Source of the DNA: an uncultured Acidimicrobiia bacterium | Lineage (GTDB): Bacteria > Actinomycetota > Acidimicrobiia > Acidimicrobiales > CAIXPF01 | Assembly (NCBI GenBank): GCA_903921205.1 | Contig: CAIXPF010000151.1 | Span: 1 to 34,211, forward strand | Reading direction: 5' to 3' | DNA length: 34,211 nucleotides | Part shown: one piece after another, positions 7,828 to 17,594 of the stretch | Numbering within the stretch: position 1 is the first letter of the stretch | Layout of the letters: every line of letters starts with the position of its first letter | Notes under the pieces: model-generated | The model's input: only the letters and a program-made list of their open reading frames with translations | Told to the model about the DNA's origin: nothing | The model's database searches: none | Program-made: the position numbers and the translations under genes

Positions 7828-8226
7828 TCAGTCGCGCGGCCGGGCCAGGATACGGAAGATGTCGGCCGTGCGGGCGAACGCCTCTGCCGACCACGGCGGG
7901 CCTACCCCGTCGAGGATCCAGCACACCAGGTCGTAGAGGTCGCGGTCGGCCTGCTCGACGTCGAGCGGCTCGAGGTCGACCACCAGCGCCGCCAGCTCCA
8001 GCCCCGACGGGAACGGTCGGCCGGAACGGCCGAGGAAGGTCAGCTCGTAGGGCCGGCCGTCGACGGCCACCACCGCCGGCGGCCGGAACGGATCGTCGTC
8101 CAGACCGAAGCGATCGGCGAAGAACCGGGCGAACTCCGGGTAGTGGCCCAGCTCCGGTTCGACCAGCAGCGGCACCGGCCGCAGGCCCGGTGGACATGCG
8201 GCGAGCACGGTCACGGTGGCGCTCAT
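7828..8226 (-). CDS. Conserved-looking hypothetical protein coupled to a dehalogenase
   Basis: A 132-residue soluble protein, family not recognised. It starts MSATVTVLAACPPGLRPVPL and has no signal peptide or membrane helix. The middle reads VVAVDGRPYELTFLGR, followed by an acidic, Leu-rich C-terminal half (ALVVDLEPLDVEQADRDLYD) and WILDGVGPPWSAEAFARTAD. ATG 8226 overlaps the dehalogenase stop (ATGA), so the two are translationally coupled. It is the third gene of the Rieske-dehalogenase operon. Position suggests an accessory or binding role for the same substrate, but nothing in the sequence proves it. Confidence 0.7.
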   Translation of the reverse strand: MSATVTVLAACPPGLRPVPLLVEPELGHYPEFARFFADRFGLDDDPFRPPAVVAVDGRPYELTFLGRSGRPFPSGLELAALVVDLEPLDVEQADRDLYDLVCWILDGVGPPWSAEAFARTADIFRILARPRD

Positions 8227-9158
8227 CGGGACCCCAGCGTGCGCTCGGCGAAGTCCACCAGCAGCTCGCCGATCTCGGCGCCCGAGTCCTCCTGCAGGAA
8301 GTGGCGGCCCGTCACCGGGTGCACGCCCTCGGCGTGGGGCCACAGGTCGTGCCAGCGTGGGGCCACGGCGTCGATGCTGAACACGTCGTCCTCCCGGCCC
8401 CAGATCACGGTGGCGGGCAGGCGCAGCCCGGCGACCCCGGCCTCGAGCCGGCGGAACCGGTCGGCGGCAAGATCGGTCGGCAGGCTCAGCGGGATCCACC
8501 GCGGCCACTGCCAGGTGAGCCGGCGCTCGTCGGCGGTGGCGGTGACCGCCTCGTAGGCGGCCCGGCCGGTGGCCTCGTACCGCTCGCGGTCCACCGTCGA
8601 GAGGTAGACGCCACGGCCCGGCATCGCGGCCTGGCGGCCCAGCAGGTAGGGCCCGACGACGGGCGCGTGCATGGTGCGCCACGGCACCACCCGATGGTGG
8701 AAGTCGGCGGACGGCTCGACCCAGGCCCAGGTCGACATGACCGCCACCGCAGCGAAGCGGCCCGGACGGCTCAGCAACGCGGCGAGCCCGGTCGGCCCAC
8801 CCCAGTCGTGACAGACCAGCACCGCTGCGTCGAGGTCCAGGGCGTCGACGAGGGCCACCAGGTTGGCGGCGTGGTTGTCGAGGCTGTGGGCGGAGGCGAT
8901 GTGCGGGCGCTCCGACAGGCCCAGGCCGATCTGGTCGGGCACGATGACCCGGTAGCCGGCCGCGAGCAGGGGCGGCACGGTGTCGCGCCACAGGTAGCCC
9001 CAGGTCGGGTTGCCGTGCAGCAGCAGCACCGGCGTGGCCTCGGGCGGGCCCTCGTCGACGTAGTGCATCCGCCAGCCGTTGACCCCGACGAACCTCGAGC
9101 GATACGGGTAACGGGCGGCGATGTCGGGACCGAGATCGGCGATGGTGCGCAGGCTCAC
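8223..9158 (-). CDS. Haloalkane dehalogenase-like alpha/beta hydrolase
   Basis: Predicted to hydrolyse carbon-halogen bonds of alkyl halides, giving alcohol and halide (cytoplasmic). It has 311 residues, the usual size. HGNPTWGYLWR carries Asn50 of the halide-binding pair. CHDWGG has the nucleophile Asp118 with halide-binding Trp119, and the C-terminal GRHFLQED has catalytic His286. The acid is probably Asp257 or Asp258 in GREDDV. Epoxide hydrolases share HDWG but normally have HGxP with an aromatic residue rather than HGNP, so dehalogenase is favoured. GTG 9158 overlaps the TGA of the Rieske gene (GTGA). The substrate is unknown, and related enzymes act on varied halides or have unknown natural substrates. 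Confidence 0.82.
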   Translation of the reverse strand: MSLRTIADLGPDIAARYPYRSRFVGVNGWRMHYVDEGPPEATPVLLLHGNPTWGYLWRDTVPPLLAAGYRVIVPDQIGLGLSERPHIASAHSLDNHAANLVALVDALDLDAAVLVCHDWGGPTGLAALLSRPGRFAAVAVMSTWAWVEPSADFHHRVVPWRTMHAPVVGPYLLGRQAAMPGRGVYLSTVDRERYEATGRAAYEAVTATADERRLTWQWPRWIPLSLPTDLAADRFRRLEAGVAGLRLPATVIWGREDDVFSIDAVAPRWHDLWPHAEGVHPVTGRHFLQEDSGAEIGELLVDFAERTLGSR

Positions 9159-10309
9159 CGCCGGGCCACCTCGGCGACCAGCCGGTCGACGGCGGCGAGA
9201 TGGTCGACCAGGCCCTGCTCGTTGCGACCGATCTGCAGCTCACGCACCGCCCCGGAGGCGATGTTGCGCTGCACCTGTTCGGCCACGGCGAAGTCCTCGT
9301 CGGGGATGGTGACCCGCACCCGCTCCCAGTTGCGTTCCCACAGCTCGTGCTCATCGGCCCGGTCGGCGGGCACCAGCATCGACAACCGGCACCTGGTCCG
9401 GCCCGGGTCGTTGGGGTCGGGCCGGAACGAGAACACCTCGTAATGCCCTGCCTGCCACTGCAGCACCGAGCCGGGCATCAACACCACGGGCAGGCTGAGG
9501 TCGGACCACAGCTCCCACTCGTCGCGGGCGCTGGCGGCGAGGTGGCGGCCCAGACGGTTCTTCGGGATGGCCACCCGGAAGTGCTCGCCGTAGCGGTCGA
9601 CCAGCCAGCTGTTCGCGGGCAGGTACGGGGCGATCGTGGTCCGGTGCAGGTACTTGAGGTGGTACAGCTCGAGGAACCCGTCGGTGAGCAGCTTCCAGTT
9701 GCACGCCACGTCGTACTCGACGGCGGCGTAGAACACCGCTTCCCCGAAGCCCAGCATGGTGAGCAACGCGTCGAGATCGGCCCCGAGCCACTCCGCCACC
9801 GACCGGGGTGCCGGATCGGGATCGGTCGTCACCCAGATGACCCCGTGGCGTTCCTCGCAGGGCACGGAACGCAGACCCCGCCCGCACGGCGCGGACGAGA
9901 ACAGGGCGGCGTCGGCCACCGAGCGCAGCGTGCCGTCGAGCTCGTAGGACCAACCGTGGAACGAGCAGGAGAACGCCCGGGCCGTCCCCTCGGCCTCCCG
10001 TTCGACGGTGGCACCGCGGTGGGCGCAGGCATTGACCAGCGCCCGGACCACGCCGTCACGGCCCCGCACGACGAGCAGGGGCAGTCCGCCCAGCTCGATG
10101 GCCCGGAAGTCTCCCGCTCCGGGTATCTCGGTGCCGTGCAGCGCCGCCACCGGACGGGCGGCGATGGCCGCCAGCTCGGCCCGGTGGCGATCGGGGCAGG
10201 TGTACACCGACGCGGGCACCGCCACCGGAGCCCCGTCGGCCGGTGAGGGACCGTCGGTGAACAGGGCCATCAGACGGTCACCGAGCGCGAGTTCCTGTTC
10301 ACGGTTCAC
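9155..10309 (-). CDS. Rieske non-heme iron oxygenase, alpha subunit
   Basis: Aromatic-ring-hydroxylating-type oxygenase/demethylase of 384 residues. The Rieske [2Fe-2S] ligands are Cys95-X-His97 (CAHRG) and Cys115-XX-His118 (CSFHGW). The catalytic domain contains NWKLLTDGFLELYHLKYLH, giving His217 and His222 and the bridging Asp210; a later acidic ligand is not pinned down. GTG 10309 is chosen because TAGAGT lies 8 nt before it; the open frame further upstream overlaps the divergent malic enzyme promoter. No ferredoxin or reductase gene is adjacent, so electrons must come from elsewhere. It is the first gene of a coupled operon with a haloalkane dehalogenase and a small protein. The substrate is unknown. 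Confidence 0.87.
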   Translation of the reverse strand: MNREQELALGDRLMALFTDGPSPADGAPVAVPASVYTCPDRHRAELAAIAARPVAALHGTEIPGAGDFRAIELGGLPLLVVRGRDGVVRALVNACAHRGATVEREAEGTARAFSCSFHGWSYELDGTLRSVADAALFSSAPCGRGLRSVPCEERHGVIWVTTDPDPAPRSVAEWLGADLDALLTMLGFGEAVFYAAVEYDVACNWKLLTDGFLELYHLKYLHRTTIAPYLPANSWLVDRYGEHFRVAIPKNRLGRHLAASARDEWELWSDLSLPVVLMPGSVLQWQAGHYEVFSFRPDPNDPGRTRCRLSMLVPADRADEHELWERNWERVRVTIPDEDFAVAEQVQRNIASGAVRELQIGRNEQGLVDHLAAVDRLVAEVARR

Positions 10310-11824: not shown

Positions 11825-13376
11825 TCCGGTCCGGGTCCGAGGGGCGACCGACCACCCGCGCCGGGTTGCCGACGACGGTGACGCCCGGTTCGACGTCGTG
11901 GCGCACCACCGCCCCTGCGGCGATCACGGCGCAGGCGCCCACCGTCACCCCGTCGTCGACAACGGCCCGGGACCCGATCATGACCCCTGCGCCGAGCTGC
12001 ACGCCGGCACCGACGTAGGCGCCCGGCAGCACCGACACGAACGGGTCGAGCACGCTGCCCGCCCCGACCGTGGTGTGCACCGACAGCAGGACGTGCGCAC
12101 CAAGCCGTGCCCCGCGGGCGACCGTGGCCCGGGGTTGCAGCAGGCAGCCCTCCCCCAGCGTCGTGTCGACGTCGACGAGGGCTGCGGGATGGATCAGGGC
12201 GAGGCTCGCCACGTCGGCCGGCAGCCGCTCGACCAACGAGCGGCGCACGGCGGGCTTGCCGGCACCGAGCAGGTAGGCGTCCGCCCCCAGCCCGGCCACC
12301 AGGTCGAGCGGCCCGAGGAATGGCAGGCCCAGCCGGGCCAGGCGTTCGAGATCGGGTTCGCCGTCGTCGACCACCCCGAGGACGCGCCACCGGTGCCGGC
12401 CATCCGCCTGCTCGACCGCCCGCAGGTAGATGTGCGCCGAGGCCACGTTGCCACCGCCGCCGACGAGCACCACCGACGAGCTGGTGCGTCTGACGGACAC
12501 CGCTGCGGCCCCGACCCACCAGGCACCGCGGCCGTCGAAGCGGTCGACGGCCCCGACGAGATCGGTGAGCTCGCACTCCCGGGCCCGTCGCTGTTCGCAG
12601 GGGTCCGTGTCCGGGCCGTCGGCATTCGCGGCCACGTCGGCGAGCACGACCGCACCGGGCGGGACGGTCACGCCGTCACCGACCGACACGCCATCGCCGA
12701 CGGTCGCTCCCGCCCCGACCCGCACACCGCGTCCGAGGTACGCGCCGGCACCGATCACTGCGTGGCCCGCAACCACCGCACCGTCGGCCAGCACGGCACC
12801 GTCGCCGAGCACCGACCGTCCGACGTGGACACCGCGGCCCAACGACACACCCGAACCGAGCACCGCACCGGTATGCACGACGCTGCCGCCGGCGATCCGC
12901 GCGCCGGGCTCCACCACCGCGCCGGCCGCAACCCATGCCGGCGCGACCTGGTCACCGCCGACCGTGTCGCCCGGCCCGGGCGCCTCCACGACCCGTGCGG
13001 GTGCGCCTGCGACGGTCGTCCCCGGTGCGACATCGCCGGTGACCACCGCGCCGGGGCGTACGACCGCGCCGGCCCCGATCACGATCGACTCGATGAGCAC
13101 CGCGTTGGCCCCCACCTCCGCGCCGGCGCCGATCCGGCTGTATCCACTGATCGCCGCGCCCGCGCCGATCACCACTGCGTCCTCGAGGACCACGTCGTGA
13201 CCGAGCGAGGCCCACGGGCCGATCCGGCACGAGCGACCGGTGCGTACCAGCCCGGCCACATAGGTGAACGGCCCGAGCACCGTGCCTGCGCCGAGCCGGT
13301 CGAGCTCGCTGCGCCAGACCGTCGGATGGATGGAGGGGGCGGTTGCTGTGCTGACGGTCTCGTCGTTCGGTGTCAT
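11808..13376 (-). CDS. Fusion of left-handed beta-helix repeats with a PglD/NeuD-like acyltransferase
   Basis: A 522-residue protein with three parts. Residues about 29-130 are hexapeptide repeats closing with PGTTVAGAPARVV, a typical end of a hexapeptide acyltransferase. Residues about 145-250 form a second repeat block (IGAGA, VGDGV units). From about 302 comes a Rossmann-like domain (VVLVGGGGNVASAHIYL) followed by a third beta-helix ending TVVGNPARVVGRP. The last 220 residues alone have the length and order of PglD/NeuD sugar N- or O-acetyltransferases. Their usual GH(D/C) catalytic His appears as Ala439 (TTVGAGSVL), while GHDVVLED with His60 is present in the N-terminal block. A role in acylating a surface sugar is likely by family. 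ATG 13376 has an AGAGAGG site 5 nt upstream. No glycan gene neighbours are seen. Confidence 0.82.
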   Translation of the reverse strand: MTPNDETVSTATAPSIHPTVWRSELDRLGAGTVLGPFTYVAGLVRTGRSCRIGPWASLGHDVVLEDAVVIGAGAAISGYSRIGAGAEVGANAVLIESIVIGAGAVVRPGAVVTGDVAPGTTVAGAPARVVEAPGPGDTVGGDQVAPAWVAAGAVVEPGARIAGGSVVHTGAVLGSGVSLGRGVHVGRSVLGDGAVLADGAVVAGHAVIGAGAYLGRGVRVGAGATVGDGVSVGDGVTVPPGAVVLADVAANADGPDTDPCEQRRARECELTDLVGAVDRFDGRGAWWVGAAAVSVRRTSSSVVLVGGGGNVASAHIYLRAVEQADGRHRWRVLGVVDDGEPDLERLARLGLPFLGPLDLVAGLGADAYLLGAGKPAVRRSLVERLPADVASLALIHPAALVDVDTTLGEGCLLQPRATVARGARLGAHVLLSVHTTVGAGSVLDPFVSVLPGAYVGAGVQLGAGVMIGSRAVVDDGVTVGACAVIAAGAVVRHDVEPGVTVVGNPARVVGRPSDPDRIRPGG

Positions 13377-13444
13377 GCCGACCTCTCTGCTCACGGCACC
13401 CGCCAACCAGGTCCACCAGGCACGCGGACATCCGTCGGGGAACA

Positions 13445-13450
13445 ACGATA
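13445..13450 (-). promoter_or_regulatory. Possible -10 element of the beta-helix fusion gene
   Basis: TATCGT on the minus strand, leaving a 68-nt leader before ATG 13376. No clear -35 is seen. A rightward TACCAT at 13531-13536 may serve the LLM gene. Confidence 0.3.
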
Positions 13451-13575
13451 CGGACCATTGCGAAGCGCCGGTACGGGCCTTAGGACATACCCGGTGGGCC
13501 CCCTCGGGAGCCCCGGCGGGCCGCCCGCACTACCATCAGCCGGCCCCAGATGCCCCACCCGGAGGAGATCCGCCC

Positions 13576-14628
13576 GTGCTCATCGAGTCCCTGCTCCCCC
13601 TCGGCAAGCTCGACCCCGGCCTGCGTGAGCCGGAGACCCCCCTCGACATCCGCGACTTCGCCCGGCTCGCCGCGGTGGCCGAAGAGGTCGGTCTGGGCGC
13701 GGTGCTGGTCGAGGAGACCAAGGACGATCCCTTCCAGCTCCTGGCCCTCGGCGCCACCACGACCTCGCGGATCGGCCTCGGCACGTCGGTGGCCATGGCC
13801 TTCCCGCGCAGCCCGACCTCGACCGCCATGTCGGCCTGGTCGCTGCAGAAGCTGTCCAACGGCCGTTTCGTCCTCGGCCTCGGCACCCAGGTGCGCGCCC
13901 ACATCGAGCGTCGCTACGGGTTCCGCTGGTCGGCACCGGCCCCGTGGGCCCGGGACTACATCGGTGCCATGCGGGCGGTGTGGGACTGCTGGCAGACCGG
14001 GGAGCCGCTGCACTTCGAGAGCGAGCACTACAACCTCAACCTGATGGTGCCGCTGTTCAACCCCGGGCCCATCGAGCACCCGCGCATCCCGGTGCACCTC
14101 GCCGCCATCGGTCCGAATATGTGCGCCGTGGCCGGCGAGGTGGCGGACGGTATCCGTCTGCACCCGGTGTGCACCGCCAAGTTCATCGACGAGGAAGTCG
14201 TCCCGAACCTGGCCCGGGGTGCCACCCGGGCAGGCCGGAACCCCCGCGACGTCGAGATCTGCCTCAAGCCGCTGATCGCCACGGCACCCGATGCCGAGAA
14301 GCTCGAGCGGGTCGTGCGCACCGTCCGGGCCCGGGTGGCGTTCTACCTGTCCACCCCGTCCTACCGGGTGGCCTTCCGGACCCTTGGCTGGGAGGACATC
14401 GCGGAGCAGGCCTCGGTGCTGTCGCGTGCACAGCGCTGGGAGGAACTGCCCGGCCTGGTGCACGACGAGATGCTGCACACCGTGGCCACCGTGGGCACCT
14501 ACGACGAGATCGCCGGGAAGCTCAACGAACGTTTCGCCGACCGGGTCGACCGGCTCGAGTTCTCGGTGCCGGTGAACGGACCGGCCGACGCCGAGGCGTT
14601 CCGGGCGATCCTCGCCGAGCTGCGCTGA
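13576..14628 (+). CDS. LLM-class (luciferase-like, probably F420-dependent) oxidoreductase
   Basis: Flavin-family TIM-barrel enzyme of 350 residues, of the mycobacterial-type F420 clade. Visible motifs are LEETKDD-like VLVEETKDDPFQLLALGATT, IGLGTSVAMAFPRSP, QKLSNGRFVLGLGTQV and IPVHLAAIGPNM, all in family order. Because the host appears actinobacterial and the motifs match the MSMEG-type F420 subfamily, F420 is more likely than FMN, but this is inference. GTG 13576 follows a strong GGAGGAG site by 8 nt. It is divergent from the beta-helix fusion gene and alone on this strand. Substrate is unknown. Confidence 0.85.
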   Translation: MLIESLLPLGKLDPGLREPETPLDIRDFARLAAVAEEVGLGAVLVEETKDDPFQLLALGATTTSRIGLGTSVAMAFPRSPTSTAMSAWSLQKLSNGRFVLGLGTQVRAHIERRYGFRWSAPAPWARDYIGAMRAVWDCWQTGEPLHFESEHYNLNLMVPLFNPGPIEHPRIPVHLAAIGPNMCAVAGEVADGIRLHPVCTAKFIDEEVVPNLARGATRAGRNPRDVEICLKPLIATAPDAEKLERVVRTVRARVAFYLSTPSYRVAFRTLGWEDIAEQASVLSRAQRWEELPGLVHDEMLHTVATVGTYDEIAGKLNERFADRVDRLEFSVPVNGPADAEAFRAILAELR

Positions 14629-14687: not shown

Positions 14688-17594
14688 TCAGGTACCGATC
14701 GGCGTGGCCATGTCCGTGGCGATCTGCCCGGCGGTGAGGGCCTCGCTGTAGACGCGGACCTCGTCGAGGTCGCCGTCGAACCAGGCGGCCGCGAACCGAT
14801 TCCCGCCGATCCGCAGCGGACCGCTGCCCTCGGTGATGGTGCCGGTCAGCGCTCGTTGAGCCGCAAGGGTGCCGTTCACGTAGATCTTCAGCGTGCTCTG
14901 GTCCCACGTGGCGGCCACATGGGACCAGGTGTTGGCCGGCAACGCCGGGGAGCCTGTGGCCCGAAGGGTGGTAGCGGCCTTGGCGATGACCGACGGTCGG
15001 GCCACCGTGGCCGTTCGCTGATCCAGCACCCACCCGGTGGTGGCGAAGCGCTCCTTGGCCACGATCGTGCGGGCCCCGGTGGTGATCCGCGGCCGCACCC
15101 ACGCCTCGACGGTGAAGCCCGTCTTGCCGGACAACGCCGTGTCATGGGGCACCAGCACGTAGTCGCTGTTGCCGTCGAAGCGCATGGCCGCGCCGTACTT
15201 GCCGTCGGCGATGGGCAGTGCTCCGGTGACCGTGCCGCCGTGGCCGTTGCCCGAGCCGTCGGGCACCGAGGTGCCGCTCACGGACTCGAACCCGTACGCC
15301 AACGCCGGCGCCGGCCCGGTCGACACCGCGAAGGTGGCGGTATAGGTGACCGGCGACGTGCCGACCACGACGTCGTGGACCCGGCTACCGAGGTCCGACC
15401 AGCTCGCGAAGTCGTAGGTGACGCCCGAGAGGCTCTGCGGCGTGGCGACATCGATCGTGTGCTCCGAACCGGCGATCACCGTGCTGGCGAACGGCGTCGT
15501 CCCGGTGTGGCCGTCGATGGTGGCCTGCAGCCCCGGCGGAGACGAGTCCAACGTCGCCTCGGTGGTCTGCGGGTACAGGTTCAACGACGTCGTGCCCGAC
15601 AACCCCGAGTTCGCCCGGGCGGTCAGCCGCAGCTCGAGGTACGCCGGGTACTCGTGATCGGGTGCCGCGAAGGTGCCCGAGGCCACGCCGGCGTAGGTCG
15701 ACAGCGGGTGGATGTGGCAGTCGTCGAGCGTCTTGCAGTGATGCAGGATCAGCTCCCAGGTGAGCGTCGAGGCGTTCATCGGGTTGCCGTTGTCGGTGGC
15801 CGAGCCGCTGAAGTCGAGCGTGTCACCGACCTGCCAGGTCGTGCCGGTCGCCGGGGTCGTGATCGTCGGGACCGGAGGTGTGCCGACGGTGATGACGACC
15901 GGCGTGATGGAGGACTTCCCGTGGTTGTCCGACACCCGCAGCCGCGCCGTGTACACCCCGTTGCTCGGGTAGGTGAACGACGCCGTGACCGCCGAACCGT
16001 CATCGAAGGCGTTGTCGCCGTCGAGATCCCACGCGTAGCTCAGCACGTCGCCGGGCGTACCGGGCAGCGAGCTCGCCCCGGTGAAGTTCACCGTGAGGGG
16101 CGCGGCACCACTCGTCGGCGTGGCCTGGGCCACCGCCTGTGGACCGGGCGTCCCACCGGGGTAGGAGATCCGGTAGACCTTGCCCCCGCCGCCGGTCATG
16201 CCGTACAGGCTGAGCATGAAGATGTCGCCGTTCGGGCCGGCCTCGAGATCGATGATCGGCTCACCGGAGAAGATCGTGGACAACTTGGTCGGATCGGGCA
16301 GGCCGTCGAGACCCGCCCCCATGACGAACACGCACTGGTGGGCGTAGTCGGAGAAGAACAGGGCGTTCTGGTACTCCGCGGGGTAGCGGTTTCCGCTGTA
16401 GAACGCCATACCGGACACCGACGACGACGACGACGGGCAGGTGTCGGCGGGGTAGAGCGGGGTCTGGTGCCGGTACTTGTAGAACGGCATCTGCACCGCC
16501 GAGGACGGCAGCGAGGTGCACAGGTTGAGCCCGAGCTGGAAGCGGGCCTCGTTGCCCTCGAAACACGGCCAGCCGTAGTTCCAGGGCTGGCCCACCGGCG
16601 GGGTGGCGATCCGGTTGATCTCCTCCCAGGTGTCCCAGCCGACCTCGCCGATCCAGATCTCGTTGGTGCCGGGGCGGGTGGTGAGCCGCCACGGGTTGCG
16701 GTGCCCGAAGGAGTAGATCCGCCGGGCGTTCAGATCGCTGCTCGCCGCCAACGGGTTGCCCGGAGCCCCCAACCCGGTGTCGGGGTCGATCCTGATCACC
16801 GCGCCGGCGAGCCCGGTCGGGTCCCCGGTGGTCCGCACGTCCTGGGCCCGCAGCGCGCCACCTTCGGCGGTGGGCACCTTCGGGGCCACCCCGACCGCAG
16901 TCGGCGGATCACCACAGGCGTTGGGGTGATAGCCCTTCTGGCCGAAGTCGGTTCCCGACGGTGTGGAGCCCTCACCCGAGGACGCGTACAGGTAGCCGTC
17001 CAGACCGAAGGTCAGGTCACCGGTTCCGTGGCTGGTCCACTGGTGGCACCAGTCCTCGACCAGGATCTGCTCGAGCCCCGCCTTGTTGGTCGTCGCCAGC
17101 ATCCTCGAGATGCGGCCGGAGCCGGTGCACTCGTTCGGCAGGGACGGCACCTCCGGGGTCGAAGCCGGACAGCGATCGGGGTTGGTCTTGACCGGGTTGT
17201 ACACCGGTGGGGTCGCGCCCATCGGCCCGTCCTTGGCGTAGAAGACGTACACCCACTTCTTGGTCGGGTCGGTCGCCCAGCGCGGATCGAGCGCCAGGCC
17301 GAGCAGCCCGCGGTTGTCGTAGGCGAAGGTCTGGTCGCGCAGGTCCGCGAACACCGTGGCGGTGGTGTCGCTGGCGTTGTCGAACACCTTGATGATGCCG
17401 GACATCTCGGTGACGAAGATCCGACCGTCCGGCGCGATCTCCAGGTTGGTCGGTGTGTTGATGTTCTTCATCAACATCGTGATGGTGAACCCGGCCGGTG
17501 CCGCGCTCGCAGGACTCGCCGGACCCGCCATGATCGCCGCAGAGGCCACCATCGCGCACGCGACGACGAGCACCGCCCAGAACCTGATCCGCAT
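14688..17594 (-). CDS. Secreted soluble-glucose-dehydrogenase-like propeller with PKD and LamG domains
   Basis: A 968-residue exported protein. The N-terminal signal (MRIRFWAVLVVACAMVASAA) has an Ala-rich cleavage zone at about 30-33. Residues about 38-480 form a PQQ-type sugar dehydrogenase (GSDH) beta-propeller: NTPTNLEIAPDGRIFVTEMSG, SHGTGDLTFGLDGYLYASSGEG and NPWRLTTRPGTNEIWIGEVG in two stretches. A PKD domain follows at about 488-575 (APLTVNFTGASS, YAWDLDGD). Further Ig-like or bacterial-repeat modules run to about 780. A C-terminal LamG/concanavalin-like domain reads MRFDGNSDYVLVPH and VEAWVRPR. It may bind or oxidise surface polysaccharide; PQQ dependence is not certain from sequence. 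There is no wall-sorting signal. An SD-like GGAGG lies before the ATG. Confidence 0.87.
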   Translation of the reverse strand: MRIRFWAVLVVACAMVASAAIMAGPASPASAAPAGFTITMLMKNINTPTNLEIAPDGRIFVTEMSGIIKVFDNASDTTATVFADLRDQTFAYDNRGLLGLALDPRWATDPTKKWVYVFYAKDGPMGATPPVYNPVKTNPDRCPASTPEVPSLPNECTGSGRISRMLATTNKAGLEQILVEDWCHQWTSHGTGDLTFGLDGYLYASSGEGSTPSGTDFGQKGYHPNACGDPPTAVGVAPKVPTAEGGALRAQDVRTTGDPTGLAGAVIRIDPDTGLGAPGNPLAASSDLNARRIYSFGHRNPWRLTTRPGTNEIWIGEVGWDTWEEINRIATPPVGQPWNYGWPCFEGNEARFQLGLNLCTSLPSSAVQMPFYKYRHQTPLYPADTCPSSSSSVSGMAFYSGNRYPAEYQNALFFSDYAHQCVFVMGAGLDGLPDPTKLSTIFSGEPIIDLEAGPNGDIFMLSLYGMTGGGGKVYRISYPGGTPGPQAVAQATPTSGAAPLTVNFTGASSLPGTPGDVLSYAWDLDGDNAFDDGSAVTASFTYPSNGVYTARLRVSDNHGKSSITPVVITVGTPPVPTITTPATGTTWQVGDTLDFSGSATDNGNPMNASTLTWELILHHCKTLDDCHIHPLSTYAGVASGTFAAPDHEYPAYLELRLTARANSGLSGTTSLNLYPQTTEATLDSSPPGLQATIDGHTGTTPFASTVIAGSEHTIDVATPQSLSGVTYDFASWSDLGSRVHDVVVGTSPVTYTATFAVSTGPAPALAYGFESVSGTSVPDGSGNGHGGTVTGALPIADGKYGAAMRFDGNSDYVLVPHDTALSGKTGFTVEAWVRPRITTGARTIVAKERFATTGWVLDQRTATVARPSVIAKAATTLRATGSPALPANTWSHVAATWDQSTLKIYVNGTLAAQRALTGTITEGSGPLRIGGNRFAAAWFDGDLDEVRVYSEALTAGQIATDMATPIGT

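Follow-up and report, generated by a model that had tools for sequence, protein, structure and literature searches.

What holds together the three overlapping genes of the window (the whole stretch of 34,211 nucleotides analysed here, from an uncultured Acidimicrobiia bacterium), and how much of the arrangement is kept in other genomes? A preliminary description had read these genes as one operon in which a Rieske oxygenase and a haloalkane dehalogenase attack a halogenated compound in sequence, with a third protein that belongs to no recognised family and may be an accessory. The genes and their junctions are as follows.

10309-9155, minus strand: Rieske non-haem iron oxygenase alpha subunit (384 aa, GTG start), first gene of the trio
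9155..9158, minus strand: GTGA overlap of oxygenase stop and hydrolase start, read from the sequence
9158-8223, minus strand: haloalkane-dehalogenase-like alpha/beta hydrolase (311 aa, GTG start), second gene
8223..8226, minus strand: ATGA overlap of hydrolase stop and small-protein start, read from the sequence
8226-7828, minus strand: small acidic protein (132 aa, ATG start, pI 4.5), third gene

The coordinates, the strand and the GTGA and ATGA joins reported earlier are all correct, and the gene identities hold as well: a Rieske oxygenase with both of its motifs, and a hydrolase with HGNP and HDWG. The oxygenase/hydrolase junction reads CGGTGAGC (GTGA) and the hydrolase/small-protein junction CGATGAGC (ATGA); in the close relative G001 the first of these overlaps is ATGA, at the position equivalent to the window's GTGA. 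Four-base gene overlaps are common in bacteria, so an overlap by itself is unremarkable, and it is the conservation of the overlap that deserves attention. Differences between the window and G001 fall mostly at third codon positions in all three genes, with dN/dS of about 0.16 for the oxygenase, 0.16 for the hydrolase and 0.18 for the small protein. Purifying selection seems to act on each of the three in this comparison, and the small gene is therefore very probably a real gene. Scans for sigma-70 promoters and terminators found nothing.

The third protein is indeed without a recognised family: it has no match in Pfam, NCBIfam or PHROGs, and three of its homologues have no match in Pfam. Against PDB sequences, the single sequence gave a best E of 0.0059 with no stretch passing alone, and the profile gave no match at E 10. 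We propose, from these searches, that it represents a new family. Members were found at six loci: in four genomes from the order to which the window belongs (G000, which is the window's own, G001, G002 and G355), G431 from another class of the phylum, and one Bradyrhizobium plasmid. The window and G001 members are near copies of each other. Among 99 relatives, the window genome included, the small protein occurs in three, all of one genus, and G003 of the same genus is without it. A three-sequence profile run over 397 genomes of the order gave five matches (the window, G001, G002, G355 and a weak one in G306), a five-sequence profile over 396 genomes of the phylum gave two (the window and a weak one in G431), and the 39 genomes of G355's family gave two (G355 itself and G773, which was discounted). 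The single match among 72,556 plasmid records lies on Bradyrhizobium sp. CB82 pCB82_1, at 47% identity. No copy was found in the phages and viral contigs searched, and a scan of genome contigs returned only the close relative among the matches listed, with patterns that reach close relatives only. Beyond the window's phylum, sampling thus consisted of plasmids, phages, viral contigs and this one close-range genome scan, and spread there is known from plasmids only.

Three of the profile matches were weak and had to be judged individually. The G306 match (E 0.007, 17.6 bits) lies inside a 287-residue frame that starts, by eye, like a dinucleotide-binding oxidoreductase, and it scored 6.3 bits with a second profile; it was excluded from the six. 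The G773 match (E 0.005, 18.7 bits) is a 123-residue frame antisense to another frame, at a locus with no dehalogenase among its open reading frames, and was likewise excluded. The G431 match was found through the small protein alone at 21.6 bits (E 4e-4 per genome; with 396 genomes searched, about 0.2 such matches are expected by chance), and its protein compares to the profile with an hhalign probability of 94.6%. Somewhat stronger than the other two, it was retained on its position, this profile comparison and the tree described below.

In all six loci, a dehalogenase-like gene lies directly upstream, overlapping the small gene by 4 bases (NTGA) in five and by 1 base (TGATG) in G431; the gene table of pCB82_1 records the identical 4-base overlap for the Bradyrhizobium pair. 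The hydrolase was also searched for in its own right. At E <= 1e-60 (an analyst-chosen limit, with five candidates scored per genome among those listed), hydrolase matches in the 397 order genomes fall in exactly G000, G001, G002 and G355, the same four that carry the small protein, and none was found in the viral contigs searched. The pCB82_1 hydrolase is 53% identical to the window's and is its nearest relative among the plasmid records listed (25 of 95 with a match), the other 24 being at most 36% identical. The hydrolase upstream of the G431 small gene has 38% identity to the window's, and its best match outside its own genome, among 296 genomes of the phylum, is the window hydrolase at 193 bits (next 173). 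In a 49-row dehalogenase tree the five hydrolases whose frames are intact group as a single clade (support 98/88, and 97% of 200 bootstrap trees), which a 22-row tree supports at 77/77 only; the G002 hydrolase, whose frame is broken, was left out of both trees. At the G002 locus (L005 10847-12208) the small gene is intact, and either an assembly error or real decay of the hydrolase gene is possible.

Other dehalogenase loci were searched, in all frames, with a profile built from six small-protein sequences. No copy of the small gene was found in 12 plasmid dehalogenase loci (best chance match 6.1 bits) or in 28 dehalogenase loci of the phylum (one match listed, at 3.5 bits), and the Rhodococcus dehalogenase locus that groups in the tree with DhmeA, a characterised subfamily III enzyme, is without the small gene. 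Since the paired hydrolases form a single clade and the small gene was not found at the 40 other dehalogenase loci, a single origin of the pairing is the simplest reading, followed by its retention while the hydrolases diverged to 36% identity. The conserved unit, judged from gene order and overlaps, is a two-gene cassette: a subfamily III-type hydrolase followed by the overlapping small-protein gene. That such a hydrolase gene is joined to this small gene in very distant bacteria suggests a partner protein that has gone unstudied, and the suggestion of an accessory in the preliminary description is borne out to the extent that the third gene looks like a partner gene. The coupling might instead be a neutral relic of block transfer, a reading that would fit a pair so rare and patchy, with one copy on a predicted conjugative plasmid. 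It is very improbable, however: the two genes stayed side by side through the divergence of the hydrolases to 36% identity and through changes in their flanks, and a dN/dS of about 0.18 also counts against it.

The oxygenase behaves differently. Only two genomes were found to have the full trio, the window's and that of its close relative G001 (90-92% identity), so the genome-context check suggested earlier gives a divided answer: the three-gene set does recur in one other genome, but only the hydrolase/small-protein pair is conserved more widely. Upstream of the hydrolase lies a luciferase-like monooxygenase in G002, a redoxin-like protein with a DsbD_N-like domain in G355, a protein without a Pfam family (preceded by a thiolase, an acetyl-CoA C-acyltransferase) on the Bradyrhizobium plasmid, and unrelated genes in G431. 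Because the genes upstream of these four pairs differ, the oxygenase looks like an add-on, apparently a lineage-specific addition, and the operon reading has to be corrected in that the oxygenase stands outside the conserved unit. Its own relatives point the same way. Among the 128 order genomes searched, the closest ones outside the genus were in G011 (57% identity) and G032 (56%), and no hydrolase of this clade occurs within about 6 kb on either side of them; the sole match to a dehalogenase profile there is a weak alpha/beta hydrolase of G032, scoring 42 bits at a distance of about 3.5 kb.

The sequential attack on one halogenated compound proposed in the preliminary description is not supported as a conserved pathway. 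The trio was found in two genomes only, other genes precede the pair in G002, G355, pCB82_1 and G431, and the 56-57% relatives of the oxygenase are without such a dehalogenase within about 6 kb. The three genes do overlap in the window and G001, which implies that the three proteins are probably made together in that lineage, and a sequential pathway may exist in the window lineage alone. Given the changing upstream genes, the unaccompanied oxygenase relatives and a hydrolase that misses the dehalogenase cut-offs (see below), we consider it distinctly unlikely that the two enzymes act in sequence on one such compound.

The oxygenase itself is an alpha subunit by its motifs. It matches Ring_hydroxyl_A (2.3e-25) and Rieske (4.6e-15) in Pfam, with a complete Rieske cluster motif C-x-H-x17-C-x2-H at residues 95-118 and a mononuclear-iron motif of the H-x4-H type, DGFLELYHLKYLH, at residues 210-222; PDEDFA, from residue 336, is what we take to be the Asp ligand region of the mononuclear site. 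It shares these iron motifs and Pfam domains with the alpha subunits of 3-phenylpropionate, biphenyl and naphthalene dioxygenases, but falls far under the NCBIfam equivalog cut-offs (best 95.8 of 830 bits) and differs from those systems in having no Fer2 or FAD_binding_6 partner on its own contig. A domain search of the window's contig found neither a Fer2 ferredoxin nor a FAD_binding_6 reductase domain. The earlier expectation that electron-transfer partners are encoded elsewhere agrees with a whole-genome partner search covering these two domains: eight Fer2 matches (seven above the cut-off) and one FAD_binding_6 match were found, all on other contigs of the window genome. Fer2 and FAD_binding_6 occur together in a single frame (G000 contig C183, 9235-10224), which is a candidate partner of the oxygenase. 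Since the genome has 13 Rieske domains and only this one frame combining the two domains, one reductase may serve several oxygenases.

What, then, does the hydrolase of the cassette do? It matches Abhydrolase_1 in Pfam (3.1e-29), and its top three NCBIfam models are haloalkane dehalogenases (1e-44 to 2e-39); its scores are below the curated cut-offs of these dehalogenase models (153 of 241, 146.9 of 265 and 135.8 of 466 bits). Among the 60 of its 315 PDB matches inspected, nearly all are named haloalkane dehalogenase, or variants or fusions of it, and none carries the name epoxide hydrolase. On these PDB matches and the three best NCBIfam models it is closer to dehalogenases than to epoxide hydrolases, the alternative that had been named as a test of the assignment. 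The active site is of the HDWG type, with the Asp nucleophile D118 followed by the halide-binding W119; N50 (in HGNP) is the second halide-binding residue, the catalytic acid is D257 after strand 7 and the base is H286. There is no Glu after strand 6, where the alignment has MSTW in the hydrolase against ME in the LinB, DmmA and AncHLD5 rows. The pentad by alignment (N50, D118, W119, D257, H286) is of the subfamily III type. The best PDB match, 8ooh, is almost identical in sequence to 8ckp (DhmeA, subfamily III), and the pentad of the window hydrolase agrees with the subfamily III set given for DhmeA in excerpts of its report (PMC10503415). The two enzymes belong to the same family by sequence and have the pentad type N, W, D, D, H in common, at about 32% identity; in the 49-row tree the hydrolase clade adjoins DhmeA and the Rhodococcus enzyme with weak support (80/25), DhmeA being the one subfamily III reference in that tree. 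A single-sequence structure prediction of the hydrolase (mean pLDDT 42) was too poor to use.

Subfamily III is described, in the same excerpts, as the least studied group, weakly active and hard to keep soluble, with low dehalogenase activity and a multimerisation of unknown mode and purpose (PMC10503415). With scores under the cut-offs and this low activity of the subfamily, dehalogenation is a plausible, putative activity of the window hydrolase. A different chemistry is correspondingly a real possibility, at odds clearly below even: the hydrolase could act on another electrophile, for example a lactone, as does OleB, a beta-lactone decarboxylase and putative subfamily III member (PMC10503415, excerpts). 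On the Bradyrhizobium plasmid the hydrolase gene stands two places after the one for an acetyl-CoA C-acyltransferase, which would suit such a role. Against it, the halide-binding N50 and W119 are retained in the four intact close-clade hydrolases and in G431, and no neighbour set of OleA, OleC and OleD was recognised in the annotations and open reading frames inspected. A non-dehalogenase activity would be compatible with a partner role of the small protein, to which we now turn.

Alignment of the six small-protein members shows 18 invariant positions, of which eight are charged or polar (E31, R67, S68, E86, D89, D94, D96 and T120). The five longer members retain the motifs GRSGxPFP and GVGxxW; the G431 member, at 97 aa, is without most of the N-terminal half and keeps both motifs partly. 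A single-sequence structure prediction was too poor to use (mean pLDDT 41). The main rival reading makes this protein an enzyme or binding protein in its own right, which would have the hydrolase's product or substrate as its target and would not bind the hydrolase itself. It would give the same gene pattern, and the retained motifs and the charged or polar invariant residues are what an active or ligand site would have, although those residues fit either reading. The most distant member, truncated and with its motifs only partly kept, argues against it, as does the lack of a match to any known enzyme family (Pfam and NCBIfam for the window protein, Pfam for the homologues), and we regard a separate enzyme as rather unlikely.

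Our preferred reading, at a probability of about one half, makes the small acidic protein a partner dedicated to this lineage of hydrolases. Two points favour it: the small gene tracks the hydrolase rather than a particular pathway, and enzymes with this active-site type are known for problems of solubility and assembly; the poor solubility, multimerisation and low activity reported for subfamily III (PMC10503415, excerpts) make a missing partner plausible. The overlap would couple translation, so that both proteins are made together in matched amounts, and the small protein would bind the hydrolase and help its assembly or solubility or regulate its cap. Substrate attack would proceed through an aspartate nucleophile, as in the rest of the hydrolase's family, and in the window lineage the Rieske oxygenase added in front may make, or remove, the substrate. 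A bolder form of the partner reading, which we hold tentatively and at somewhat below even odds, is that the small protein is an obligate subunit or assembly factor that founds a new dehalogenase-partner family, giving the hydrolase its oligomeric state, cap closure and activity, as part of a two-gene cassette that crosses phyla.

Several findings count against a dedicated partner. First, other enzymes of the subfamily III type seem to do without it: the Rhodococcus locus is without the small gene, and the excerpts of the DhmeA report mention no coupled small partner (PMC10503415). Second, the pair is rare: six members are few, and G003 of the same genus has no pair. Third, the G431 member, short at 97 aa, owes its inclusion to its position together with a weak profile match, and the poor structure prediction of the small protein (mean pLDDT 41) shows no interface. 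Among the matches listed from the open-licence PubMed Central literature (titles and abstract starts), no paper on a coupled small partner of a dehalogenase was found. That literature, by the starts of its abstracts, gives bioremediation, biocatalysis and protein tagging as uses of haloalkane dehalogenases. If the small protein is a dedicated partner, its co-expression could rescue activity and make the multimerisation question directly testable.

Other genes also overlap the 3′ end of dehalogenase genes in these bacteria. In three order genomes (loci L041, L045 and L048, in G011, G162 and G068) the dehalogenase is followed by a gene with a similar start in all three, overlapping by 4 bases in two and beginning 10 bases past the stop, at a contig end, in the third; the L041 protein is a member of Pfam HTH_67, and L048 begins alike. 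This gene is another recurring dehalogenase neighbour. At L052 and L053 (G523 and G543) a gene of 144-145 residues comes after the dehalogenase gene; in L052 the two overlap by 4 bases, and the protein there is SCP2 sterol-transfer-like. The L041 and L052 neighbours resemble the window's small gene in their overlap, but unlike it they belong to known Pfam families, and neither matches the small-protein profile.

The Bradyrhizobium sp. CB82 pair (L010 1-20306) lies among genes annotated as alkene reductase, glutathione-binding protein, carboxymuconolactone decarboxylase and thiolase. Its plasmid is predicted to be conjugative, and the surroundings of the pair resemble a catabolic island. Genes for luciferase-like monooxygenases lie near the pairs in the window (13264-14628), G001, G002 and G355, one of them at L006 6804-7856. 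Genes of this kind abound in these bacteria; the annotated genes around the Bradyrhizobium pair include none, and neither do the 13 of 32 open reading frames scanned around the G431 pair. The luciferase-like monooxygenase was dropped as a component of the system on these grounds. Beyond it in the window, at 14688-17594, a 968-residue frame combines a glucose/sorbosone-dehydrogenase domain with PKD domains and a laminin-G-like lectin domain.
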